DNA of 64,000 bases, from the NCBI RefSeq assembly GCF_002310815.1, contig NZ_CP011032.1, positions 1,156,001 through 1,220,000 on the forward strand, written 5' to 3'. The notes below the pieces were generated by a model. The model worked only from the letters and a program-made list of their open reading frames with translations. It did not search any database and was not told the origin of the DNA. The position numbers were made by a program, and so were the translations under genes. The DNA is from Pseudoalteromonas tunicata. Its GTDB lineage: Bacteria; Pseudomonadota; Gammaproteobacteria; Enterobacterales; Alteromonadaceae. This document shows, one piece after another, positions 2,992-51,833 of this stretch (its first letter is position 1; each line of letters starts with the position of its first letter).

Positions 2992-4620
2992 CTAAAGCTT
3001 ATGACGTTGTTGGCGTTGAGCTAACTTATTTTGCCCACTTGATTTGGTTTGTTCACCGGCATAAAGATGCAGCGTACCAAAATGACTTTTTAACTTCGAT
3101 GCGGCGTAATCGAGTTCAATGATCGAAATAATAAGCGCATGTTTTTCAGGAAAGAGGGCTTCAACAGCTTGTGATACCAGTTCATACAAACGTTTTAAGT
3201 TAATTTGATGAGTTTGCCCTGTTTTTTCAAATAGCCAATTGGTCAACGCCATAAATTCATCAAACGGGTTATCGGATAAGATATGAGCCAAAGAATGTTT
3301 GAAGCGTCCAGAATTACCTATCATATCCCAGTAGCGAGCAAAACGATTGATAAGTTGCATAGTCGCAAAATCAACTCGATCAGTACTTAAAATATTAAAT
3401 GGTGGTAATGGATTAAAGCGCAAATCAAACGTCTCGGTATGCCTAATTATCGGGCTGCCTTTAAGACGCTTTAAAATACCCAATTGAATTTCATGCGGGC
3501 GACACTGATACAGTTCGTTAAAGCTTTCTCTAAAGGTCTCAAAGGTTTCACCAGGCAAACCAAAAATAAGGTCGGCATGAATATGCGCGCTAGTATTATC
3601 TTTAAGCCATATTAAATTTTCTTTTGATTTAGGGTTATTTTGTTTGCGGCTAATATTAGTTTGTACTTCAGGGTTAAAGGTTTGAATCCCTACCTCAAAC
3701 TGCAAACTGCCATCGGGGAATAGCGTTAATAATTCTTTTAATTTACGCGGTAAATGGTCGGGCACCACTTCAAAGTGAAGAAATAAATCGTCAGTCATCC
3801 TATCTAAGAAAAACTGCATAATTTGCATGGTCGTGGCAATATTTAAATTAAAAGTTCTATCGATAAATTTAAAGTTTCGTGCTCCGCGCTGATAAAGAAT
3901 ATCCATTTGATCTAGAAATAACTCAAGTTCAAACGGGTTTGATGCCGTGTCTAACGATGACAAACAAAATTCACACTTAAACGGGCAACCACGTGACGCT
4001 TCAACATACAATAAGCGATTTTTTAAATCTTCATCACTGTAATATTGATAAGGTAATTCAAGGTCTTTTAATTCAACGGGGGTTGATTTGAGAATTTTTT
4101 GTTCCGGCTCAGTTTTGTTGATAATATCTTTACACAACTGGTAAAAACTAATGTCAGCCGCGCCCGTTAAGACAAAATCAGCGGAGGCGACAATGTCTTG
4201 TTGCTCAGCTTCATAACTTACTTCAGGCCCACCTAAAACAATTTTGATTTCTGGCGCGACTACTTTTAATAAGCTAACTACATTAGTGGTTTCAATAATG
4301 TTCCAGATGTACACACCAAAACCAACAATATCAGGCTTTGCTTCCAAGATTTGTTCAACAATATCGATGGCACGAGTTTGAATAACAAACTCTTTAATTT
4401 CACAGCAACTTTGTAATTCTTTTAAATTCGCGTACAGATAACGCAGGCCCAAACTAGCATGAATATACTTCGCATTAATGGTTGCCAGCACTATTTTAGC
4501 GTCGCTTGCCACGTTTTCGTGATTAAGTGATGATGTTTTTTTTAACGGCGCAGGGGAGTAGTGCTCTGCCGGGTTTATCTGTGTTACTGAAATCTGATTA
4601 TCGAATTGTTGCATTGCCAT
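2992..4620 (-). CDS. B12-binding radical SAM protein (DUF4080 type)
   Basis: A 542-residue cytosolic enzyme. Residues about 42-160 form a cobalamin-binding (Rossmann-like) domain with KIVLATINAKYIHASLGLRY and a KPDIVGFGVYIWN segment. The radical SAM core begins with CPFKCEFC, giving the CxxxCxxC cluster ligands C212, C216 and C219. The C-terminal third, with FDLRFNPLPPFNILS, resembles DUF4080. The reaction is unknown; the class commonly performs methylations or rearrangements. It is transcribed alone, and its upstream region (4621-4834) faces the ssrA-side flank of the island. It belongs to the chromosomal backbone, not to the island, because it lies outside the left attachment repeat. Confidence 0.82.
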   Translation of the reverse strand: MAMQQFDNQISVTQINPAEHYSPAPLKKTSSLNHENVASDAKIVLATINAKYIHASLGLRYLYANLKELQSCCEIKEFVIQTRAIDIVEQILEAKPDIVGFGVYIWNIIETTNVVSLLKVVAPEIKIVLGGPEVSYEAEQQDIVASADFVLTGAADISFYQLCKDIINKTEPEQKILKSTPVELKDLELPYQYYSDEDLKNRLLYVEASRGCPFKCEFCLSSLDTASNPFELELFLDQMDILYQRGARNFKFIDRTFNLNIATTMQIMQFFLDRMTDDLFLHFEVVPDHLPRKLKELLTLFPDGSLQFEVGIQTFNPEVQTNISRKQNNPKSKENLIWLKDNTSAHIHADLIFGLPGETFETFRESFNELYQCRPHEIQLGILKRLKGSPIIRHTETFDLRFNPLPPFNILSTDRVDFATMQLINRFARYWDMIGNSGRFKHSLAHILSDNPFDEFMALTNWLFEKTGQTHQINLKRLYELVSQAVEALFPEKHALIISIIELDYAASKLKSHFGTLHLYAGEQTKSSGQNKLAQRQQRHKL

Positions 4621-4834
4621 AGTGGTTCTTAACTAGCTTAAAAAGTCTGGACGTAATAATACAGCAATCTGACGCTATTCAGTATCAGATTTTACCGACA
4701 CTAAAAACCAGCTAAACAGTATTTATTTTTTCAGCATTAAACCAATTTAAACACCAATATATATTCAAATAATTTGGATTAGAAAGGAAGAGTGGGAAAT
4801 AAGAGGGTTTGATTAATGACAGATATATTAAACG

Positions 4835-4872
4835 CCAAAAAAATAAGCCGTTGCTTTAAAAGCAACGGCTTA
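4835..4872 (-). terminator. Original ssrA terminator, left behind by island insertion
   Basis: A perfect inverted repeat, TAAGCCGTTGCTTT (4844-4857) with AAAGCAACGGCTTA (4859-4872), is followed on the minus strand by a run of seven T. No minus-strand gene ends just before it. It sits 8 bases beyond the position corresponding to the ssrA CCA end in the left att repeat, as expected for the ancestral ssrA terminator displaced by the insertion. Confidence 0.75.
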
Positions 4873-4875
4873 TCA

Positions 4876-4895
4876 GTATGTGGTGGAGCTGGGGG
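4876..4895. repeat. attL: duplicated 3' end of ssrA
   Basis: GTATGTGGTGGAGCTGGGGG is identical to the 20 bases at 20711-20730, where it forms the 3' end of the intact ssrA gene (complement of CCCCCAGCTCCACCA plus 5 flanking bases). Beyond the core the two copies diverge. This is the direct repeat expected from site-specific integration into the tmRNA gene. Confidence 0.88.
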
Positions 4896-4959
4896 AGGTT
4901 GAATCTAGATTTTAATGTTTTGATATTAAAGGTTAAATTTACATTTTAATTTTTGTGTT

Positions 4960-5578: not shown

Positions 5579-6568
5579 ATGGATGACTTTTCGCCTTCAG
5601 ATTTAAAAACAATTTTACACTCCAAGCGTGCCAACATGTATTACCTCGAATATTGTCGGGTAATGCAAAAAGATGGCCGAGTCCTTTATTTAACTGAAGC
5701 CAAAAACGAAAACCAGTACTTTAATATCCCAATTGCCAATACCACGGTATTACTTTTAGGTAATGGTACATCAATAACCCAAGCGGCAATGAGAATGCTG
5801 GCTCAAGCGGGTGTATTAGTCGGTTTTGCTGGTGGCGGAGGCACGCCATTACATATGGCATGTGAAGTCGAATGGTTTACGCCTCAAAGTGAATATCGCC
5901 CAACCGAATATCTTCACGGTTGGTTACAGTTTTGGTTTGATGATGAAAAACGCCTCAAGGCCGCAAAAACGTTTCAACAAGCGCGGATTCATTATTTACA
6001 AAAAGTCTGGCAAAAAGACCGCGATTTAAAAAATGAAGGATTTGAGTTTAATAGCGAACAAATACAAAGTGCATTAAATACCTTTCATATCCGCACTGAT
6101 GCGGCAAGTAAACAATCAGACTTGCTATTGACCGAAGCCCAGCTCACCAAAGTGCTTTATAAATATGCTGCCAATAATACCAATGCAGCAGAGTTTAAGC
6201 GCCAACACCAACCTGATAAAAATAATATCAATAAAGCCAATGACTTTTTAAATCATGGCAACTACTTAGCGTATGGCTTAGCCGCTAGTTGTTTATGGGT
6301 ACTGGGCATCCCTCATGGCTTTGCGGTTATGCACGGTAAAACACGGCGCGGAGCGTTAGTGTTTGATGTTGCCGATTTAATTAAAGACGCCATCGTGCTG
6401 CCTTGGGCGTTTATTTGCGCCAAAGAAAATGCCACCGAACAAGAATTTCGCCAGCAAGTATTGCAAGCCTTTACCGACCATAAAGCACTCGACTTTATGT
6501 TCGATACAGTAAAGGGAATTGCCTTACAAGATTATTCAACACATGACATTGAGGCACAAAACCTATGA
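5579..6568 (+). CDS. cas1: Type I-F CRISPR integrase Cas1
   Basis: A 329-residue Cas1 of the subtype I-F kind, the metal-dependent integrase that, with Cas2, inserts new spacers at the leader end of the array. Active-site candidates are E186 (in [10 protein letters not shown]), H252 (in [13 protein letters not shown]) and D263/D266, in the order and spacing of known I-F Cas1 proteins. The N-terminal beta domain includes [18 protein letters not shown] and the glycine-rich [12 protein letters not shown]. It is the first gene of the cas operon; its stop overlaps the next start by 4 bases (ATGA), indicating translational coupling with cas2-3. All key residues are present, so it is probably functional. 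Confidence 0.95.
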
Positions 6569-9498
6569 TGGTCACGTTTGTCTCACAATGCGAAAAAAAC
6601 GCACTTTCGAAAACCCGCAGGGTACTCGATGCCTTTGCCAACCGAATTGGCGATAACACATGGCAAACATTAATCACCGAAGATGGCTTACTCACCGTTA
6701 AAAAAATGCTCCGTAAAACCGCCAGCCGCAGCACTGCTGTCAGTTGCCATTGGATCAGAAGTCGCTCACGTAGTCAGTTATTGTGGGTTGTAGGAAACAG
6801 ATTGAAATTTAATGAACAAGGCATAGTGCCAGTGAATAGAACAGAAAAAGAGGTTTATATGGATGTCATAACCGACAAACCTAAATCTGGCGTACTTTAT
6901 GCCAATACAAAGTTACAGCCCTTGGCAGAGCATTTGTTTGCGGTAGGTTATTTTGCCGAGCAATTACATAAAAATTTATTTCCTGATAGCCCACAATTTT
7001 CGATGGTGAATTTTGTTGCGGGGTGTTTACATGATGTAGGTAAGATAGATCCAAAATTTCAAGAGTGGGTTACTAATCCCAAAAAGAAAAGTTTTATTGC
7101 TGATGATGGTCAACATATTGATGATTCAAAATTTAGTTTTGAAAAACATCCACGCCACAATGAAGTGTCGCTATTGCTTTATCATCTTTTAGATAGCGTA
7201 GAATTAAAAATAATCAACCCAAGCAATAAAGAATCCATTAAACATGCTATTTATTGGCATCATGCGAAGCCATATCGTAAAGATAAAAGCAGTTTTAGCA
7301 CCTATAAAGACATTGGCAAAAAACTAATCGCTAACCAAAAAGGTCTGTTACTGAATGATATTTTAGGCCAAGTACATGCCTTACTAAACCAAGTGATGGG
7401 GATAGACAAAAAATATCGCTCAGCAACGAGCTCAATTTTGAGTAAAGCTGTAAATAATGAAATAGTTTTAGAACACGAATTTACTATTTCAAGTTCATTG
7501 CACACGCCCAGTTATAAAGAATATGAGCTAGAAGAGTCTGTTTCTGCTAATCGTGCTAATGTGAAAATAAACGCATTAAATAATATTGCCCGAGCATGCG
7601 TGATCACGGCCGATAGAATCATTTCTACAATGAGTGCGGCAGAATTACACGAAGCTATAATGCAGCAAACTCTTGATGAAAAAGTGAGAGAGCTTCTTGA
7701 GGTTGAATCTACTCTTAGTTCAAATATTGAGGCTTGTTTGAGTGCATTTTATCCCAACAGTGAACGCAGCATTAAGCAAAGTGATATTGCCAAACAGTTA
7801 ACTAACGCTGAAGATGTTGCTGTGTTAGCGGGTACTGCAGGTTGTGGTAAAACCAAAATTGCGTTGGAGTGGGCAAAACTGCAAGGCGCAAAACGAATTA
7901 TTTGGGTCTGTCCACGAGTGCAAGTCTGCCAAGGCTTGTTTTATGAATTAACCTCAGAGCAATACTTACCGAATAGCACCATCGAAATAAATACCGGCGA
8001 GTTTAAATTTCACAACCATTGGGATAACCCGATCCCAGAAGGTGAAAACTTCTCTGGTGATGTTGTAATAACCACCATAGATCAAATTTTAGGCTCTGTG
8101 ATCAGCCACACCAATGCGAATACCCTTATTGATTTTTTAAACAATCATGTGGTCTTCGATGAGTTCCACGAATACGTAAACATGCCCGCGTTTAACTTGC
8201 TATTTGCCGAGTTGATTGCAGCTAAAAAAGTAAAAGAGCAACAAGCGAATACGCTATTGGTCTCAGCAACTCCGCACTATGCGTTTGTTGAAGACTTACT
8301 GGGCATTCACCCCGATGACATCATAGAAATGCCATCGTTTAATCAAAGCAATTATCAACTCAATTTTAAAATATTTGACGATACCAAACTTGATAACAGC
8401 AACCCATTATTTACTCCGCAAAGTGACTGTACTTTTGTTATTAGTAATATGGCACTCACCGCACAAAATGGTTTTATCACAAATCAACATATTGAAAATG
8501 CGGTATTACTGCACTCTAAATTTATCAAAAGTGACAAGCAAAAATGGTTTGAAGAAGTATTTGAATCATACAGACGAGGTGGCACACGTAAATTTGAAGT
8601 GCTACGAAGCGGCCCTATTGTTCAGGCGTCATTAAACATCAGTTGTGATTACATGATCGCTGAAATAACAAATGCTGAAGATTGCCTTCAACGTTTAGGG
8701 CGACTAGATAGATTTGGTGAAAACGAAAAGGTAAATATTTACACCTTAGCAGTGCCAGAATCTATCGCCGCATCAAAAGGCAATAGCCCTGCATCACGAT
8801 TTTTAGCTAAGTTGTATGTGCTTAAGTCTGTGCGCGAATGGTATCAGTTTTTATTAAATTCATTACAGGATAAACCATTCAACTTACCTGAAATTTACAG
8901 GCTTTATAAAGACTTTCATCATTTAGAAAATACAAAAAAATATATCGAAAGTGATCTAGTGGCTGCACTAAAAGCCAGTGTCATGAAGATAAACGGGAAG
9001 ATCATCGACCCGATTGTTGTACCACCTAAAAAGAACAAAGAGAAAAAGCGCAGTAAAATTAGTAAAGGCTCATTGCGCGGTGATAACCGTTTTGTGCAAA
9101 TGGCAGTTGTTGACCTCAGTCAGTCGGAGTATCAATACATTGAACAGTATGCTTATACAATGCCGCTTGATGACGAAAGCGATATTGATAATTTAACCTA
9201 TTCTACGAATGCTATTTTGGGGTATGGACAAAGTGATAAAGACTTACTTTCACACATGTTCAAAAAACATCACAACATTATGGGGGGCACTAAGTCGTAT
9301 AACGATAATGCATTATTAAATGAAGCGCGTGACCCTGAATCACCTATTTATTTAAGTTATACCACTAACGATTTGCTACCAGTGGGCGGTGAGAGTGCAC
9401 GCCACCCTCATGCTATTTATTACGCAGTCTGTGATAAACAACCCATAGGCGCAATGTCAATTAAACAAATTAATCAAACCACAGAAGATGAGGAATAA
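6565..9498 (+). CDS. cas3: Cas2-Cas3 fusion nuclease-helicase (type I-F)
   Basis: A 977-residue fusion that both partners Cas1 in adaptation and degrades targeted DNA. Residues about 1-95 are the Cas2-like domain. The HD nuclease follows, with H123, HD at 156-157 (GCLHDVGK), H195/H198 and WHH at 231-233. The superfamily 2 helicase has Walker [10 protein letters not shown] (422-430), DEFH (532-535) and SAT (567-569), and a C-terminal region beyond. It is about 100 residues shorter than the classic I-F protein of Pseudomonas. Cas2-Cas3 fusion is diagnostic of type I-F. It overlaps cas1 by 4 bases and ends 3 bases before cas7f2. No motif is missing. Confidence 0.94.
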
Positions 9499-9501
9499 AT
9501 T

Positions 9502-10449
9502 ATGGAAAAAGTAACTGGAATTAAAAGTGTTGATTTCAAAATTAAAGCAGTAGGTCATGGCGTTGTGAATTGGAATGGACCAACGACTTTAACGGGTGAT
9601 AGCGGAAAAACAGTAGATAATCACACACTGCCAAAACTAAGAGGATATTCAAATTTAACGGGGAAAATAAAAGACGAGACAGGTTATAAATATAAAAAAG
9701 AGGCAACTGATATCGATTTTAAAAAAACGCCTTTATATATTAGTCAAAACTGTATTCGCCATCATTTATTCAAAGAACAAGCCTTTGATTTGCATTTTGC
9801 CGGTGAAAAAAATTTAGAAAAAGTGTTGGCATCCATTACTGGTCTTGTACGAGGTTACGTCGTACCTTCAAGCCAATGCAAAAGAACAAGTCCATTGTTA
9901 ATGGAGGATTTTGTTGACCAGTTAGGGAATGGCAACTTTGAACAATTTGGTCAAGCGGGTGAACGTGATAGCTCATCATTCTTTTCTAAAACAACGTTTG
10001 GGGATACCGAATATTTATCTTATGGTTCAATCAGCATTGAACAATTACAGTTTATCTCGCTAGATAAAAAGTTTGACCGTGCAAGTATGATTATTAAAGA
10101 AGGTCAAGGTGAAGAAGTTGCAGCTACCGTTCAAGGTTTTATCAAAGAATTAAACCCATCATTAAACCCAGTAGCTACTTTTCATAGCAACTATGTCCGT
10201 AAAGGCACTATTTTCGAAGAAGGAGAGTGCGGAATTTTACTCAATGACGATGCAGTTCAAGCAATCGTTGAGCATACTCTATCCCGCATAGCCGATTTAA
10301 GTATCCGCCAAGCCAAAGGTTATATGTATGTTGATGAAATCACTGTTGATTATAATGATAGTCATAAAATGATGCGCATTAAGCGTGATGAATCCGAAAT
10401 TGTAACCAAGCCAAAATATCAATTCGCTCAATATTTTTACGCAAAATAG
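9502..10449 (+). CDS. cas7f2: Cas7 of type I-F2 (Cas7fv), Cascade backbone
   Basis: A 315-residue protein placed as Cas7fv, the subunit that polymerises along the crRNA spacer. Visible RAMP-like traits are an early beta strand with a glycine ([11 protein letters not shown]), a long thumb-like region with [17 protein letters not shown] residues, and a C-terminal strand before QFAQYFYAK. The call rests mainly on context: the five-gene order cas1, cas2-3, cas7, cas5, cas6f with no cas8f is that described for type I-Fv in Shewanella putrefaciens CN-32. It starts 3 bases after cas2-3 and ends 8 bases before cas5f2. Individual RNA contacts cannot be assigned by eye. Confidence 0.82.
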
Positions 10450-10457
10450 GTGGCAAT

Positions 10458-11468
10458 ATGAGAATCACCATTGATTATGATTCATGCTGGCGTAATTCGT
10501 TTTTAGGCGGTTCTAATAATGAACCATTGCCTAAAAAAGGCAGAGAATTTTTAGGATCTATGACCAGTCTTAAAACAGAGGGAAACTTCAAAGTCTGTGA
10601 AAACACATTAGATACAGTCATGGGATTATTAAATCGGTTAATTGGAGATCAACGAAAGCTCTATCAAGCACGCAGTAAAATGTACGAAGGCACTTACTAC
10701 TTTGAAGATCTAGAAAGTAATGTAACTTTTATAGATAAACCACAGCTGACTAATGAAATGACGTTTATTCGTAATATGAACGGCAGTACAGATCAAAACT
10801 CGTTTACAGGAATGATTAAAGTGACTGATCCTGTTTTTACGTCCAATTACTCATCAAAATTTTGGGGGGTATTAAGTTTAGATCTATCTACACTATGCAA
10901 CTTTATAGTTGATGATGTAATGGAAGAAGAAAGCATTCAACTTGATCCATTGAGTATTATCAGTCGCCTTGAATCTTTGAATAAAGAGAAACCTCTTGAA
11001 AATGAAGGTTCGGTTGAGAAGATTGTCGAAACTCTTAGATCTGTTTACCCTGATATCGAATACTTCAATAAAAAAGGGCAAGTAGTTACTATTAGTCTTT
11101 ACTGTTCAGCTTTGTATCTACAATTGTCGCGTTTAGAAAAGCAATATGATATGTCCTCAGCGAAAACTAAAGTGGGTGGGATAAGTGGAATTTCTAAGCG
11201 AGGATTCACTAAAAAGGACTTCATGGATCGTTATACAACTGGACCTAAAAAAACTATTTGGGGAAATCCTTTTATTAAAAAGGAAAAAATAAAAGGGCAA
11301 GGGGAAGTCACTTCTATGATGACCAAAGCTAGCGGACAACTTGAAATTATCATTGATGTAGATCGAGAGAAAGGGCTAGAAATTAAAAACCTTATCGAAT
11401 GCGCTGGTGTATCAAGTTTTTACCTCGGTAAAAAAGGCCTTGCCTATGTTTCAAGTATTCGAGTTTAG
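10458..11468 (+). CDS. cas5f2: Cas5 of type I-F2 (Cas5fv), caps the crRNA 5' handle
   Basis: A 336-residue protein in the Cas5fv position. In the characterised I-Fv complex this subunit binds the 5' handle and, through an extra helical domain, takes over PAM recognition from the missing large subunit. Here an N-terminal beta start ([19 protein letters not shown]) is followed by a helical middle region (about 30-220), then a basic stretch ([20 protein letters not shown]), and a C-terminal ferredoxin-like end with [17 protein letters not shown], which resembles other Cas5 C-termini. The length fits the enlarged variant. It is 8 bases downstream of cas7f2 and 8 bases upstream of cas6f. The assignment uses context plus this end motif. 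Confidence 0.8.
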
Positions 11469-11476
11469 GAGAAAGT

Positions 11477-12028
11477 ATGGATTCTTATATTGAAATACAA
11501 CTAAAACCTGATGCAGAAATGCGTGAAGCAGAACTTAGCAGTAAAGTATTTACCAAGTTTCATAAAGCATTGGTAGGACTAAAAACGAATCAAATAGGTA
11601 TTAGTTTTCCCCAAGTAAATCTAAAGCTTGGTAGGGTATTTCGTATTCATGGTGATGCAAGTTTGCTTAATGATCTTCAAGGATTGAATTGGTTAGGCCC
11701 GCTAAATGGTTATTGCAAACTAAGCGATATTTTAACTGTTCCAGAAAATACTCAACATCGTATTGTTTCTGAAAAAAGAAGTAATTTAAGTAAGGCAAAA
11801 CTAAGGCGCTTAATTGTCAGAGGTAGTATCGATAAAGAAGGTGAAAAACGTTACAAGGTAAAGATGTTAAGTCAAGGTTTTAATAATCCTTACTTAGATT
11901 TGTTTAGCAGCTCAACAGAGCAAATACACCGCAAATTCTTTGAGTTTAGTGAACTCAAATCTGAACCTGTTAATGGTACATTCGATTCTTATGGGTTAAG
12001 TAAAGTAGCTACTATACCTTGGTTTTAA
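11477..12028 (+). CDS. cas6f: Cas6f (Csy4-like) CRISPR RNA endoribonuclease
   Basis: A 183-residue ribonuclease that cuts the array transcript at the 3' base of each repeat hairpin and stays bound to it. Catalytic His29 sits in KFHKALV, at the same position as in Csy4. The serine cluster S144-S146 and Y172 match the other Csy4 active-site positions. The arginine-rich helix ([16 protein letters not shown], about 101-116) should grip the repeat stem, and the C-terminus [13 protein letters not shown] is typical of the family. It is the last gene of the operon, 130 bases before the first repeat. Its substrate hairpin is visible in every repeat. Confidence 0.95.
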
Positions 12029-12158
12029 CCTTTTAATTTTGCTCTTTAAAAATATGACATAAAAACAGTGAGTTACAGCAGGTCAAATTTTATTAGGTTA
12101 AATTTAAATTTTTAATCTAATTACCTGTTGTAACTTACTTTTTGCCTGATATTCTATT
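12029..12158 (+). promoter_or_regulatory. CRISPR leader with internal inverted repeat
   Basis: This AT-rich 130-base stretch lies between cas6f and the first repeat. The most uniform repeats are next to it and the degenerate ones are at the far end, which marks it as the leader. It holds an inverted repeat, AGTTACAGCAGGT (12071-12083) and ACCTGTTGTAACT (12123-12135), with 12 of 13 positions matched and 39 bases between. The AT-rich centre could be bent by IHF, as in other type I leaders. It should contain the array promoter, but no clear -35/-10 pair stands out. Confidence 0.7.
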
Positions 12159-15100
12159 GTTCACTGCCGCACAGGCAGCTCAGAAATTTTGGAGTTGATT
12201 ATGAGCAAGCACAAAATCGTTCACTGCCGCACAGGCAGCTCAGAAAGGGCAGTGGCAAAAGTTATGAGTGCGTTGTACGTTCACTGCCGCACAGGCAGCT
12301 CAGAAATTTCCAAGATGAGCATAAATTACTAGCGCTAAGTTCACTGCCGCACAGGCAGCTCAGAAAAAACGGATCAAAATCAGGTTTAAATCTAAATAGT
12401 TCACTGCCGCACAGGCAGCTCAGAAAATTTTAATACGCTTTTGCAATCATAATGAATAGTTCACTGCCGCACAGGCAGCTCAGAAAACGGCAAAACCGTC
12501 GACGTCGTAGCCGTATAAGTTCACTGCCGCACAGGCAGCTCAGAAAGCCGTCCCTGTCCCAAAGAACCGCGCTTGCTTGTTCACTGCCGCACAGGCAGCT
12601 CAGAAATTGCTTTTGATAAATTCGCAAGGCCTGATTCAGTTCACTGCCGCACAGGCAGCTCAGAAAAAAATAAAACTAAGGAATAAGACTAAAAACAGGT
12701 TCACTGCCGCACAGGCAGCTCAGAAATCGAAATGGATTATAAGACCCAACAAGATTTTGTTCACTGCCGCACAGGCAGCTCAGAAAACTATCTTTGGTTT
12801 GTGCAAACTCAGTTATGTGTTCACTGCCGCACAGGCAGCTCAGAAATCTTCTTCTACTACCATACCCAACTCTAAATAGTTCACTGCCGCACAGGCAGCT
12901 CAGAAAGTACTCATACCCGTCTTGCTCGGCCGCTGCTAGTTCACTGCCGCACAGGCAGCTCAGAAAACGGTCACAATCCGCTTCAATATCCCAAGCGCGT
13001 TCACTGCCGCACAGGCAGCTCAGAAAAAATTCAACAGTAGAATTCATGAAAAAAATACGTTCACTGCCGCACAGGCAGCTCAGAAAATTTACTTACCGCT
13101 CGATGACCGAATCTGTGAGTTCACTGCCGCACAGGCAGCTCAGAAATTCAACCCACTGACCATCAACTAAAATTTTAAGTTCACTGCCGCACAGGCAGCT
13201 CAGAAATCTGTCAGATATTAGCTTGACGTATTTATTGGGTTCACTGCCGCACAGGCAGCTCAGAAAGCACTAATAACGAAGTGGTAAGCGGTCGTTTAGT
13301 TCACTGCCGCACAGGCAGCTCAGAAAAGAATTAAATAATATATCACCTCCTCCATTAGGTTCACTGCCGCACAGGCAGCTCAGAAAAACAGGAGAGAATT
13401 TAAGCGCCTTACCTGTCAGTTCACTGCCGCACAGGCAGCTCAGAAAATCAGTTTCACTAGTACCGATGGTGCTACGTAGTTCACTGCCGCACAGGCAGCT
13501 CAGAAATTTTATAATCGACCAGCTGACAAGTATACTGAGTTCACTGCCGCACAGGCAGCTCAGAAACGTCGTGCTAAGTAACGTTAACGTTTATATGAGT
13601 TCACTGCCGCACAGGCAGCTCAGAAATTGGAAACTGGGTAAAACACGTGTTGTTTTCAGTTCACTGCCGCACAGGCAGCTCAGAAATAAAAAGAGCTTTA
13701 GCTAAAAACACAAAAACCGTTCACTGCCGCACAGGCAGCTCAGAAATGTAAAAGTAAATCCGAGCATATCATCAGATTGTTCACTGCCGCACAGGCAGCT
13801 CAGAAACACTAACAACCGCACGCATTGCGGAATCTCCAGTTCACTGCCGCACAGGCAGCTCAGAAATTCACCGCATCTTTTAGATAGTTATCAATTAGGT
13901 TCACTGCCGCACAGGCAGCTCAGAAAATGAACGGCGGCGAGCATTACGCGTTCCGCGTGTTCACTGCCGCACAGGCAGCTCAGAAAGGGCAGTGGCAAAA
14001 GTTATGAGTGCGTTGTACGTTCACTGCCGCACAGGCAGCTCAGAAAGGGCAGTGGCAAAAGTTATGAGTGCGTTGTACGTTCACTGCCGCACAGGCAGCT
14101 CAGAAAGGGCAGTGGCAAAAGTTATGAGTGCGTTGTACGTTCACTGCCGCACAGGCAGCTCAGAAAATGAACGGCGGCGAGCATTACGCGTTCCGCGTGT
14201 TCACTGCCGCACAGGCAGCTCAGAAAATGAACGGCGGCGAGCATTACGCGTTCCGCGTGTTCACTGCCGCACAGGCAGCTCAGAAAATTGTGAATAACAT
14301 TGTTTTGTTCATGTGATAGTTCACTGCCGCACAGGCAGCTCAGAAATTTTCTTGCTCGTACTTAGCTTTTTGATGCTCGTTCACTGCCGCACAGGCAGCT
14401 CAGAAATATGCGCTCGCGACCGTTAGTAACAGGTTGGTGTTCACTGCCGCACAGGCAGCTCAGAAATAACCGTAAAACGTTGGGGCTTATTTATGTGAGT
14501 TCACTGCCGCACAGGCAGCTCAGAAATTAAACCCCAACCATTTGGATCTGACTCTAATGTTCACTGCCGCACAGGCAGCTCAGAAAAATAAGTAATAGAG
14601 TTATTGTTCGCTGTCATGGTTCACTGCCGCACAGGCAGCTCAGAAATAAAAATTTATTGGGATCAGCCATAGGGCCACGTTCACTGCCGCACAGGCAGCT
14701 CAGAAAAAATCAACAAAGCACAAGCAAACTACGACAAAGTTCACTGCCGCACAGGCAGCTCAGAAAACTCGATGATTTTTTTAAATCTGACGCAACTTGT
14801 TCACTGCCGCACAGGCAGCTCAGAAATGTGGCTGCTGAAAAGGACGCCAGCAATTGTTGTTCACTGCCGCACAGGCAGCTCAGAAATGTCATAATCTTAC
14901 GTTGTGTTGCTAGGTCTCGTTCACTGCCGCACAGGCAGCTCAGAAATGTTTTATCAGCTAAAGCCGTACAAAGTGCGCGTTCACTGCCGCACAGGCAGCT
15001 CAGAAAACTAAAAATAGTTAAAGCGCCTCTGCTGTTGTGTTCACTGCCGCACAGGCAGCTCAGAAATCTCCCCGATGAAATTTACGATTTTTTCAGCAGT

Positions 15101-18007
15101 TCACTGCCGCACAGGCAGCTCAGAAAACATAAGCACCTCTTAGATCGAAAAAGGGGCGGTTCACTGCCGCACAGGCAGCTCAGAAAGTCAACAATCGACA
15201 CTGTTGTCGGCGCGAACAGTTCACTGCCGCACAGGCAGCTCAGAAAGGTATAAAGTCAAAGTCAAAAGTAAGGTTATTGTTCACTGCCGCACAGGCAGCT
15301 CAGAAATTCAGTCGGGTTTAACTCGTAGAGACGGTTTTGTTCACTGCCGCACAGGCAGCTCAGAAAGAAAAATCAGCCTGTCTTTTATATGTATGAGCGT
15401 TCACTGCCGCGCAGGCAGCTCAGAAAATGCTTAAATAAACATTGAATCCATTCAGTTCGTTCACTGCCGCACAGGCAGCTCAGAAATAACGGCATTATCG
15501 GGTATAAAGTGGCCCGCTGTTCACTGCCGCACAGGCAGCTCAGAAATATAAACACTTGTTCTGCCCCTTCTTCATCCTGTTCACTGCCGCACAGGCAGCT
15601 CAGAAAAAGAGCGTCAATCTTAACTAATTTTGACTGATGTTCACTGCCGCACAGGCAGCTCAGAAAACCAAGTGCGCCAAGATAATCAACGTAAACAGGT
15701 TCACTGCCGCACAGGCAGCTCAGAAATTGAGATTTTCGAGGGTTTCATTTTCGTCTAGGTTCACTGCCGCACAGGCAGCTCAGAAATAACAACTGTTGCC
15801 CTTGGTATAGGGGGTATTGTTCACTGCCGCACAGGCAGCTCAGAAAGCTACAATAAACACTCAATCGAACAATTACATGTTCACTGCCGCACAGGCAGCT
15901 CAGAAATCAATCAGAAAAGGCTCTGAATCTGTTGAAATGTTCACTGCCGCACAGGCAGCTCAGAAAGCCTAGGCTCGGCACCGCCGAAACCAAAGAGGGT
16001 TCACTGCCGCACAGGCAGCTCAGAAAGATAACTGGCCTCACCAACTCAGCAGGGGCAAGTTCACTGCCGCACAGGCAGCTCAGAAATGAATAACAATATT
16101 AAAACCATCAAATACTCGGTTCACTGCCGCACAGGCAGCTCAGAAAATTTTTAGCCATAAAAAACAATGTTGCTGCGGGTTCACTGCCGCACAGGCAGCT
16201 CAGAAAGATAACCGACATTGCTAAATTCGAGCTGTTATGTTCACTGCCGCACAGGCAGCTCAGAAAGTCAGGCGTAGTTGCAATGGATGTTAAAATAGGT
16301 TCACTGCCGCACAGGCAGCTCAGAAATGCGCTATCGATGCGTTATACCAAAACGCCTGGTTCACTGCCGCACAGGCAGCTCAGAAAGTAACAGCCATTAC
16401 TAACTCTGTAATCATTTCGTTCACTGCCGCACAGGCAGCTCAGAAAGATAAATCAGCAGGTGTACATAAACGATGGCCGTTCACTGCCGCACAGGCAGCT
16501 CAGAAATTAATTGTAAGTTATAAAACGTTGTTTCGTTTGTTCACTGCCGCACAGGCAGCTCAGAAATAAAAATTTATTGGGATCAGCCATAGGGCCACGT
16601 TCACTGCCGCACAGGCAGCTCAGAAATAAAAATTTATTGGGATCAGCCATAGGGCCACGTTCACTGCCGCACAGGCAGCTCAGAAATAAAAATTTATTGG
16701 GATCAGCCATAGGGCCACGTTCACTGCCGCACAGGCAGCTCAGAAATAAAAATTTATTGGGATCAGCCATAGGGCCACGTTCACTGCCGCACAGGCAGCT
16801 CAGAAATGTTCCATGCCGTCCACCTATCAATGGTGAGGGTTCACTGCCGCACAGGCAGCTCAGAAAGGAATTGTTGAGCCAGGTCGATTTATCGACCAGT
16901 TCACTGCCGCACAGGCAGCTCAGAAAATTTGTTAATTCGTTTTGCTTGATAAACACAAGTTCACTGCCGCACAGGCAGCTCAGAAAGTTAAAGGGCTAGG
17001 CTATGACGATTAAGACGAGTTCACTGCCGCACAGGCAGCTCAGAAAACAATGAATACATCTAGCATAACCATCTTTTCGTTCACTGCCGCACAGGCAGCT
17101 CAGAAAGTAAACCGGATAACGCAGCTTTATTGACCTTTGTTCACTGCCGCACAGGCAGCTCAGAAATTATTTCTCTCAGAGAGAGGTGCTGATACATTGT
17201 TCACTGCCGCACAGGCAGCTCAGAAAATGATCCCAATCATAGCCGCGCCGCTAGCGAAGTTCACTGCCGCACAGGCAGCTCAGAAATGTAAGTTCTGTCT
17301 GGCCGTTTAACTTCTTGAGTTCACTGCCGCACAGGCAGCTCAGAAATGATTAACTCTGTTAGTTCAGATGGTAGGTGTGTTCACTGCCGCACAGGCAGCT
17401 CAGAAATCAGTATTAATGCTGGTTAATGTTTCAGTACGGTTCACTGCCGCACAGGCAGCTCAGAAAGTTATTGAAGCCAGTTCTAAAGGCAATAATCCGT
17501 TCACTGCCGCACAGGCAGCTCAGAAATTTTCGTTATTAGTGCACGGCCACGCTTAAGCGTTCACTGCCGCACAGGCAGCTCAGAAATCAACAAGGCTGGT
17601 TGTGTTTGTATCTATCTGGTTCACTGCCGCACAGGCAGCTCAGAAAGTTCAACTTCACTTTAATTGATGTTTGACCGTGTTCACTGCCGCACAGGCAGCT
17701 CAGAAATTGTTTCATAGCGATCACCGAAATTCTCTAAGGTTCACTGCCGCACAGGCAGCTCAGAAATGTAGGTATCAAGTCTTGGCTCTCTAGTGTTATG
17801 TTCACTGCCGCACAGGCAGCTCAGAAATGATGCTAACATAGAGAAAGTGGCTTTAGCTGGTTCACTGCCACACAGGCAGCTCAGAAAAGAAGGTGCTAAT
17901 TATGGCGTGATGGACTGGCGTTCACTGCCACACAGGCAGCTCAGAAATTTTAACGCTTTACGCGCAATGCTTTTAGACTGTTCACTGCCACACAGGCAGC
18001 TTAGAAA
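12159..18007 (+). CRISPR. Type I-F CRISPR array: 98 repeats, 97 spacers
   Basis: The repeats are 28 nt, starting GTTCACTGCC and ending CTCAGAAA, with 32-nt spacers (60-base period) from 12159 to 17766. The repeat hairpin is CTGCC-GCACA-GGCAG, and Cas6f cleavage after it would leave the 8-nt handle CUCAGAAA. Spacer 94 (17767-17799) is 33 nt. Repeat variants: 15399-15426 has A to G in the loop; the last three (17860, 17920, 17980) have G to A in the loop, and the final one also has TTAGAAA. This decay marks the old end. Spacers 2, 31, 32 and 33 are identical; 30, 34 and 35 are identical; 42, 74, 75, 76 and 77 are identical. By eye there are 88 distinct spacers. Short ORFs across the array are artefacts of the 60-base period. 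Confidence 0.98.
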
Positions 18008-18612: not shown

Positions 18613-18813
18613 GTGACTGTTTGGCAGCCTGTTACGCATATTTCAATTGATAGTAACGCCCACCAAATTATTGCTGCTCGGCTTAACGCATTAAAAAGAA
18701 AACGTTATTTTTTGGTGTGTATTGAGTGCGGTTTTAGGCATGTAGTAGGCCACATGCATGACGCTGATATTTGCCAAGGCTGTGCAAGCAACAAGCATGG
18801 CGTGATGTATTAA
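18613..18813 (+). CDS. Small C4 zinc-ribbon protein
   Basis: A 66-residue protein from a GTG start, with a purine-rich AAAGGAAAAAGAAAGA upstream. Two CxxC pairs, CIEC and CQGC, are separated by 16 residues and form a likely zinc ribbon, preceded by a basic helix (ARLNALKRKRYF). Phages and islands often encode such small C4 proteins (TraR/DksA-like or Ogr-like) that act on host RNA polymerase, but this sequence cannot be placed in either family by eye. It is followed 34 bases later by another small ORF in the same direction, and both precede the convergent integrase. Probably real; function unknown. Confidence 0.55.
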   Translation: MTVWQPVTHISIDSNAHQIIAARLNALKRKRYFLVCIECGFRHVVGHMHDADICQGCASNKHGVMY

Positions 18814-19311: not shown

Positions 19312-20352
19312 TTAAGCATTATTTTTATCTGCAAGGTAACGAACTAACTTGCGTCTATCTTTTAAAATGGCTTCTAATCCTAGTGGTAATAAATGCTGGT
19401 GCCATTTCAAAAGTGCTTGGTATTTTTGCTGCTCTGCATGGGTAAAAATGTACGCAGAATTAAGCGCTGACAGCTTATGGTTAATCAGTTGTTCGCCAAT
19501 AAAGTGGTCGATGCCAAGCTCAGTTAAGTTAGTACGCATGAGTTTGCGTAAATCATGGGATGAGTAGCCTTGTTTGGCGTGATAGCTCACTTGCTTGCCA
19601 GCTAAGTTAATATCGATATGGTCTTTTGCATGGCTTGAACTTGCAAAGCACCATAGTTTTTGTTGTTTGCGGTATTTGTAATGTAGGCGGTAGCTTTCAA
19701 ATACTTCTTCGGCGATATCGGTGATTGGTAGCTGGTGGGCTTGCTTGGTTTTGGTGTGTTCAGCAGGGATATACCATTTTTTATTGCGGATTTTTACATC
19801 GTGCCAACGCATTTTGCAGGTCTCACCTAAGCGCGTACCAAACAGTAACATGGTCAACATTATTTGCTGGATAGTGTGTGGGGCGGCATGAATATCTGCG
19901 AGCACTTGTTCAAGCTGGTTTGTGCTTAAGCGACTTAGTTTTGCCTTTATTTTGCTGGTGGTGAAGTTGGCAAATTGCACCCCTTCGAGCACAGGGTGGT
20001 TAATAACCCCAGCGCTAAAGGCGAGTTGGCATGCTTGTTTTAAATGTTGAAATATTTTGTGTACCGTACTTGGTGAAAGTTTGCCAAGTAGTGGTGTTAT
20101 TAATAGTTGATTGATATGAGCACGGTTAAGCTCTTTGACTGATTGCGACGCTAAACAGGGTAACAGGTGAGTCTGCACGCTGTTGCGAATACTGGTTTTA
20201 GTCGCTTGGCTTAAGCCGTATTGTTGCTGTTTATGTTTTAAAAACCATGTTAATAATTCCGTGACTGTTTTTGCTCTGATACTACTGAGTTGGTTTAGTT
20301 CGATGCCTTCGGCATGTTTTTGGTAATACGTTTTTTCTAATTCGAATGCCAT
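19312..20352 (-). CDS. int: P4-type tyrosine integrase, N-terminal domain disrupted
   Basis: The open frame of 346 codons holds the core-binding and catalytic domains of a site-specific recombinase. Catalytic residues are R174 (FGTRLGE), a lysine at 201 or 203 (HTKTK), H266 and R269 (SSHDLRK), H292 (LINHK) and nucleophile Y301. The ATG at 20352 is not the original start: the frame reads back into LGHYPILSVAEAKN, a typical N-terminal-domain motif of P4-like integrases, and then meets a stop. The first 44 residues of the same protein are encoded just upstream in another frame (20363-20497). About 20-24 residues between LQLVI and LGHYP are missing. The catalytic domain is intact, but arm-site binding should be lost. 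Its position next to ssrA identifies it as the island integrase. Confidence 0.85.
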   Translation of the reverse strand: MAFELEKTYYQKHAEGIELNQLSSIRAKTVTELLTWFLKHKQQQYGLSQATKTSIRNSVQTHLLPCLASQSVKELNRAHINQLLITPLLGKLSPSTVHKIFQHLKQACQLAFSAGVINHPVLEGVQFANFTTSKIKAKLSRLSTNQLEQVLADIHAAPHTIQQIMLTMLLFGTRLGETCKMRWHDVKIRNKKWYIPAEHTKTKQAHQLPITDIAEEVFESYRLHYKYRKQQKLWCFASSSHAKDHIDINLAGKQVSYHAKQGYSSHDLRKLMRTNLTELGIDHFIGEQLINHKLSALNSAYIFTHAEQQKYQALLKWHQHLLPLGLEAILKDRRKLVRYLADKNNA

Positions 20353-20710: not shown

Positions 20711-20730
20711 GTATGTGGTGGAGCTGGGGG
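20711..20730. repeat. attR: 3' end of the intact ssrA
   Basis: GTATGTGGTGGAGCTGGGGG is identical to 4876-4895. Fifteen of its bases belong to the ssrA acceptor end. The copy on this side is joined to the complete tmRNA gene. Confidence 0.88.
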
Positions 20731-21070
20731 GATTTGAACCCCCGTCCGGAAAGCGTCGACCTTCGGTCCTACATGTTTAGTATCGTCTATTAGTTAACCT
20801 TTGAATCTCGGACGAACACGATAAGCAAAGGCGAGGCCGCTTAGTTTTAACGCTTCAACCCCGGCCAGGGTTTCCGTCGCGATCAGGTGTTAGGGTGACA
20901 CTCCAAAATCCAGTCCACAAGAATACATGGGAGGAGCGCTAGCGGCCTAAGCTGCTAGAGAGTAAGAATCGTCGTTTGCGATTACTTTAAATGCGGCTTT
21001 TTTACGAGGCAAACCGCACCTCGACATGCACCTAAGGCTTCTTGAATTCCGTCGAATCCTAATCAGCCCC
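20716..21070 (-). ncRNA. ssrA: Transfer-messenger RNA (tmRNA)
   Basis: A 355-nt RNA that rescues stalled ribosomes with SmpB. The 5' end GGGGCTGATTAGGATTCGAC and the 3' end with T-loop GTTCAAATCC and CCCCCAGCTCCACCA form the tRNA-like acceptor. The internal reading frame encodes the degradation tag ANDDSYSLAA followed by TAG, close to the gammaproteobacterial ANDENYALAA. It remains intact after island insertion because the att core restores its 3' end. Upstream, GTCACATT/AATGTGAC (21093-21123) can form a hairpin in the precursor leader that RNase P removes. Confidence 0.97.
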
Positions 21071-51158: not shown

Positions 51159-51235
<77 letters not shown>

Positions 51236-51257
51236 CTTAGCACTTGCGAAGTAAGAT

Positions 51258-51334
<77 letters not shown>

Positions 51335-51350
51335 TTTTTTTTTGTGTAGC

Positions 51351-51427
51351 GGTGACTGTAGCTCAGTTGGTAGAGCCCCGGATTGTGATTCCGGTTGTCG
51401 TGGGTTCGATCCCCATCAGCCACCCCA
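51351..51427 (+). tRNA. tRNA-His (GTG)
   Basis: 77 nt including the extra G at -1 typical of tRNA-His and encoded CCA; anticodon loop TTGTGAT. Acceptor strands GTGACTG and CAGCCAC leave an A-C mismatch at pair 4-69. Confidence 0.96.
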
Positions 51428-51455
51428 TTCACACAACGTGTAAAAATAAAGATTT

Positions 51456-51532
<77 letters not shown>

Positions 51533-51556
51533 CTCTTTATTGCACATTCTTTAAGT

Positions 51557-51633
<77 letters not shown>

Positions 51634-51656
51634 TCTTAAAAAAGCAATACACTCAT

Positions 51657-51733
<77 letters not shown>

Positions 51734-51756
51734 TCTTAAAAAAGCAATACACTCAT

Positions 51757-51833
<77 letters not shown>

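Follow-up and report, generated by a model that had tools for sequence, protein, structure and literature searches.

How does a type I-F CRISPR-Cas locus (clustered regularly interspaced short palindromic repeats and CRISPR-associated genes) get by with five genes and no large subunit, and on what kind of DNA is it carried? The question is raised by a 64,000-nucleotide stretch of the Pseudoalteromonas tunicata genome (contig NZ_CP011032.1, positions 1,156,001 to 1,220,000; hereafter the window), in which a first-pass annotation, made from the sequence alone, had proposed an intact, minimal I-F2 (I-Fv) operon at positions 5579–12028, of the layout known from Shewanella putrefaciens. We conclude with great confidence that the locus is a complete I-F2 system, probably carried on an integrase island of ~15.8 kilobases (kb) at the ssrA 3' end. 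The system illustrates well a subtype already described and is not of a new kind; the fresher points are the probable island, with its direct repeat and integrase, and a congener in which the cas7-cas5 cassette has diverged with the CC flank of its targets mostly kept.

Five tightly packed open reading frames (ORFs) lie exactly where they had been placed, and matches to protein profiles and to chains in the Protein Data Bank (PDB) bear out the identity proposed for each:

5579–6568, forward strand: cas1f, 329 residues; TIGR03637, 482.3 bits; PADLOC Cas1fv, 613.9 bits
6565–9498, forward strand: cas2-3fv, 977 residues, with Cas2, HD and helicase domains; PADLOC Cas3fv, 1593.7 bits over residues 1–974
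9502–10449, forward strand: cas7fv, backbone subunit on the CRISPR RNA (crRNA), 315 residues; NCBIfam NF040577, 488.3 bits (cut-off 200); PDB chain 5o6u_C, gapless over residues 1–315, 619.9 bits
10458–11468, forward strand: cas5fv, predicted by analogy to read the protospacer-adjacent motif (PAM), 336 residues; PADLOC Cas5fv, 534.8 bits; PDB chain 5o6u_F, gapless over residues 1–335, 586.9 bits
11477–12028, forward strand: cas6f, crRNA endonuclease, 183 residues; PF09618, 184.4 bits; PDB chain 5o6u_B, residues 3–183

The profile scores of Cas1f, Cas7fv, Cas6f and the helical domain of Cas5fv (residues 110–266; Pfam PF20158, Cas5fv_helical, 242.5 bits) lie well over their cut-offs. In Cas2-3, the Cas2 domain occupies residues 1–79 (Pfam PF21384) and residues 105–977 match PDB chain 9g44_A; the NCBIfam model of the classic I-F Cas3f reaches 151.6 bits, under its cut-off of 565.95, and aligns with residues 1–97 only. 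The gapless alignments of Cas7fv and Cas5fv are with chains of S. putrefaciens CN-32, as the proposed layout implies. The motifs that had been quoted are all present, namely Cas1 E186, H252 and D266, the Cas2-3 HD motif (156–157), Walker A (near K429) and DEFH (532–535), and Cas6f H29, which we take to be the catalytic residues. Comparison with the copy in Pseudoalteromonas prydzensis (locus L001) gave proportions of nonsynonymous differences (pN 0.034–0.103) far below those of synonymous differences (pS 0.55–0.72) in all five genes, which indicates purifying selection. With all five frames open as well, the proposal of an intact system stands.

One residue of Cas5fv, Q113, is reported to contact the PAM and to distort its first base pair (PMC6546366; this and the other papers given by PMC number are cited from excerpts). 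The present protein retains Q113, as do 32 of the 33 usable sequences among the 36 compared (L036–L038, of 13–16 residues, were left out), and D254 is found in 33 of 33; our guess is that the helix-6 lysine and aspartate described in the excerpt of that paper correspond to K252 or K253, and to D254.

Where, then, is the large subunit? Since the first two genes overlap by 4 bases and the remaining three gaps measure 3, 8 and 8 bases, there is no space for such a gene inside the operon. Nor was Cas8f found anywhere in the 4.96-megabase genome, by either TIGR02564 or PF09611, and within the operon, the region inspected for it, there is no separate small-subunit gene. Across 108 genomes of the genus, PF09611 matches 13 and Cas5fv occurs in 8, the present genome included; the two sets do not overlap, which is not significant at these numbers. 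Elsewhere on the chromosome lies a broken Cas6f-like piece (G000:C1:2719893–2720327; L140, L143) with one internal TGA, scoring 56.8 bits in the genome search; its 97-residue ORF alone, at 24 bits, just misses the cut-off of 25, and two surrounding stretches of 19.9 kb yielded no I-F-like repeat when searched with a simple repeat pattern. This piece is perhaps the relic of another I-F system.

The interval first annotated stops short of both the CRISPR array and the likely island ends. Directly downstream of cas6f lie:

12029–12158, forward strand: leader, with an imperfect inverted repeat (12071–12083 and 12123–12135)
12159–18007, forward strand: CRISPR array, 98 repeats of 28 nucleotides (98 matches to Rfam CRISPR-DR4, with repeat parsing)

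The array carries a single repeat type and 97 spacers, 96 of them of 32 nucleotides and one of 33, of which 88 are distinct. Three spacers are present three to five times each within 12219–16806, mainly in tandem and one of them also close to the leader end (spacer 2 recurs as 31–33, spacer 30 as 34–35 and spacer 42 as 74–77), so blocks have been duplicated or re-acquired. The last three repeats of the array are altered, and so is one inner repeat at 15399, while those on the leader side are identical; the changes in the last three suggest that spacers are added from the cas side. The right arm of the leader repeat contains an element, TGTTG[TC]AAC, that is present in 16 of the 24 leaders compared (among which those of L001 and of L048, from congener G049, are the same DNA). 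The genome holds no second array of this repeat, the matches beyond the array being short (E 0.3 and 0.56), and no strong self-target (one further match, E 0.04). The 48 plasmid records that matched the array were taken as other I-F arrays.

To find targets, the array was compared with phage records (12 matched, of which H2 and H8 were examined) and the joined spacers with the 108 genus genomes; the 88 distinct spacers were then compared without gaps with the collected loci. Six of them have candidate targets, at 1–6 mismatches, and each of these belongs to a conjugative or phage-like element. The target of s8 (1 mismatch; flank CC) falls within a gene of congener G088 that matches the conjugative-element family TIGR03757 (12900–13361 of L105), and that of s79 (2; GC) in an EAL-domain gene of the same region (7718–8497), beside the conjugative element; three of four further genes scanned in this region have matches in families of integrating conjugative elements, and the fourth has none. 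The target of s43 (4; TC) is a II/X-type phage replication gene in congener G056, that of s62 (4; CC) lies immediately ahead of an annotated gene of Pseudoalteromonas phage J2-1, that of s30 (5; CC) is in a primase/helicase gene of an Aeromonas phage, and that of s70 (6; CC) is a prophage portal gene adjoining a terminase gene in congener G083. The base at position −1 is thus C in all six and the flank CC in four, a small sample. These flanks are consistent with the GG PAM of type I-F, which reads CC on the spacer-like strand. Weighing against this reading, the two best targets disagree (CC at one mismatch, GC at two), and two of the four CC-flanked targets stand at five and six mismatches. 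Matches of s26, s60 and s67 at 7–8 mismatches (flanks TA, TC and AC) were judged chance and kept out of the PAM count. A seed search of IMG/VR with four spacers yielded a contig for one, spacer 2, whose first 20 nucleotides match (23 of 32 overall; flank CC); it too was not counted.

On what is this locus carried? The features that bear on the question are:

4876–4895, forward strand: left 20-base-pair (bp) direct repeat, putative attL, an exact match to 20711–20730
18613–18813, forward strand: small ORF of 66 residues, weakly matching Lar-like restriction alleviation proteins (phrog_6795, E 3e-4, 21.6 bits)
19312–20352, reverse strand: tyrosine integrase, 346 residues; PF00589, 62.3 bits; 364 bases from the transfer-messenger RNA (tmRNA) gene
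20711–20730, forward strand: right 20-bp direct repeat, putative attR, overlapping the tmRNA 3' end
20716–21070, reverse strand: ssrA (tmRNA), putative integration site; Rfam, 217.6 bits; ARAGORN

The 20-bp sequence occurs in two copies only in the window, 15.8 kb apart, and these enclose the cas genes, the array, some small ORFs and the tyrosine integrase. Such an exact repeat together with the integrase suggests an island of ~15.8 kb, and we think it likely that the cas locus and array ride on it at the ssrA 3' end; judging from this anatomy, the island may be mobile. Other congeners carry comparable arrangements: the ssrA end is repeated exactly, over 44 bp, at a distance of 13.9 kb from ssrA in G014 and of 17.8 kb in G061, and the DNA adjoining the left repeat here (4837–4903) is 81% like the flank of the G014 copy. 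Integrase-like matches stand beside ssrA in 3 of 16 further congeners' ssrA flanks. Among the matches listed in a literature search for tmRNA with subtype I-F2 or CRISPR, there was no ssrA island with I-F2.

Several observations speak against the island. Its left repeat diverges past 20 bases, compared with the 44 shared in the G014 and G061 islands, and GC content is not distinctive (cas genes 37.6%, left flank 38.8%, right flank 39.3%, array 48.1%). An empty site was not found, none of 16 congeners' ssrA flanks matching positions 2992–4875 (blastn, E <= 1e-3). Moreover, short stretches on the ssrA side resemble the ssrA flanks of three relatives, one resemblance (L060, 55 nucleotides, 89%) being terminator-like sequence. 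It could accordingly be argued that a small element alone ends at ssrA and that the left repeat is incidental, leaving the cas locus outside; the integrase-like matches in the congener flanks show such small elements to be common there, and the ssrA-side similarities and the unremarkable GC content would fit. However, besides the copy at ssrA the window contains the 20-bp core only once more, a short way upstream of cas1, with the entire cas locus between it and ssrA; the sequence flanking it on the outside matches the equivalent flank in G014. We therefore regard this alternative as improbable.

Doubts of another kind concern the system itself. A locus whose genes look intact could have fallen out of use in this strain: the sequences examined hold targets for only six of the 88 distinct spacers, the last repeats are degenerate, and no WYL-domain gene was seen upstream of cas1, where two congeners have one. 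Few target matches are nonetheless usual where phages are sparsely sampled, all five frames are open and under purifying selection, the leader-side repeats are identical and s8 has a target at one mismatch, so that a silent or decayed locus seems quite unlikely. It is scarcely conceivable, in turn, that this is a classic I-F1 locus whose cas8f was lost or misplaced. PADLOC models with the plain labels Cas7f and Cas5f do score (660.7 and 362.3 bits), but the Cas7f and Cas7fv models both match full-length, which suggests that the plainly labelled ones derive from I-Fv proteins; the classic Cas7f and Cas5f models of Pfam and NCBIfam give no match to the 315- and 336-residue proteins at E <= 1, and both the variant-specific models of the two subunits and their gapless alignments with PDB chains point the other way. 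As neither profile found Cas8f in the genome, the I-F1 explanation is refuted, barring a Cas8f so divergent that both profiles missed it. A complete I-F2 system thus remains the reading we prefer, and the variant identity that the first-pass annotation gave the two subunits, together with its proposed lack of a large subunit, came through these comparisons unchanged.

Two features of the window lie apart from these subjects, namely a cluster of seven tRNA genes at 51159–51833, five of them tRNA-Pro(TGG), and, at positions 2–1660, a Peptidase M9 (collagenase) protein with PKD and PPC domains, truncated by the window start.

Is the effector of such loci fixed? The operon of congener G092 (L047; G092:C4:25000–44900) offered a comparison. 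Its DNA is mostly 78–93% identical to that of the window over cas1, cas2-3 and cas6 (about 85%), with 65–67% in two gapped 200-nucleotide bins at the cas1 end and the leader, and drops to 31–64% in the bins from ~9565 to 11390, over the cas7-cas5 cassette (8645–10916 in L047). The breakpoints are sharp, falling within about the first 60–70 nucleotides of cas7 and the last ~80 of cas5. Protein identities follow suit, at 92% for Cas1, 92% for Cas3, 85% for Cas6, 51% for Cas7 and 33–41% for Cas5. The Cas5fv of G092 has 428 residues, and public data already list comparable long proteins under the name Cas5fv. The predicted structure of a relative of this long form (P0001; mean local confidence, pLDDT, 80.3; predicted template-modelling score, pTM, 0.59) has extra long helices in mid-protein; it matches 5o6u_F (E 1.3e-21), but superposes on it poorly overall (template-modelling score, TM, 0.32).

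Of the 95 spacers of G092, 18 have a target at five or fewer mismatches in the collected loci. The best target is flanked by CC for 15 of these 18, and by CA, CT and AC once each; among the weaker targets of these spacers, some have CA, TT or CT. From the CC flank in 15 of the 18, the PAM seems unchanged by the cassette swap. That I-F2 loci exchange cas7 and cas5 together, as one cassette, through homologous recombination, with the PAM staying fixed, is a proposal that we would put at an even chance. If it is true, a swap would alter the effector surface, for example towards anti-CRISPR proteins, and the PAM constraint would be set by the shared Cas1 and Cas2-3. Two sites on the P. tunicata chromosome (G000:C1:695791–695825 and 707331–707362) resemble G092 spacers (E 7e-6 and 3e-4), and are possibly prophage.

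Scanning GTDB genomes turned up 29 loci, in 21 of which all five genes were matched by tblastn, some only partly or at a contig end. In L011, L012, L014, L021 and L023, a PIN-domain gene and a small partner sit inside the I-F2 operon, in the cas7/cas5 or cas3/cas7 gap; these are possibly toxin-antitoxin pairs guarding the operon. Other genes interrupting the operon are KilA-N in L002 and RhuM-like in L026. We considered such extra genes of distant operons as the missing subunit and dropped the idea, five of the seven scanned being PIN-domain genes and two KilA-N or RhuM-like. The WYL-domain gene mentioned above lies directly upstream of cas1 at L047:3729–4574 and L049:2073–2903.

How, then, might the system work? 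Cas1 and the Cas2 part of Cas2-3 would insert 32-nucleotide spacers beside the leader, and Cas6f would cleave the array transcript. The crRNA would then be coated by one Cas5fv, several Cas7fv and Cas6f, and Cas5fv with its helical domain would read the GG PAM (CC on the spacer-like strand), replacing Cas8f, after which the target would be degraded by Cas2-3. Here the assembly of the complex, the reading of the PAM through the major groove and interference are expected by analogy with the CN-32 homologue. The locus thus offers a well-resolved I-F2 system with a long array, a probable compact ssrA island and natural targets fitting the GG PAM. The G092 comparison, for its part, provides a natural cassette swap with which to ask if a change of effector evades anti-CRISPR proteins, the PAM being held constant by the adaptation proteins.

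Compared with known systems, the closest reference is the I-F2 system of S. putrefaciens CN-32 (5o6u, 5o7h and 9g44, the last entitled as a minimal type I-F2 interference complex), whose chains Cas2-3, Cas7fv, Cas5fv and Cas6f match; the PDB entries are without Cas1. The GG PAM reported for CN-32, on the target strand (excerpt of PMC7266957), fits the targets found here, and Cas8f was not found in the genome here either. The CN-32 system includes CasDinG (excerpt of PMC12714560), whereas the present operon has none, the genome's two Helicase_C_2 matches lying outside the window; also unlike CN-32, the P. tunicata locus appears to sit on an ssrA island. The locus L001, from a metagenome-assembled genome of P. 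prydzensis, has the same five genes in the same order, 85–93% identical, and a similar leader; it differs in having no match to the P. tunicata integrase within 12.3 kb, of which 1.3 kb past cas5 are covered. Carriage of I-Fv on an island has already been reported in Vibrio cholerae, on VPI-6 (PMC6360697). According to the excerpt of that paper, VPI-6 is likewise an integrase island with the five genes cas1-cas3-cas7fv-cas5fv-cas6f; it measures ~29 kb and excises in experiments, whereas the putative island of P. tunicata measures ~15.8 kb and lies at ssrA.

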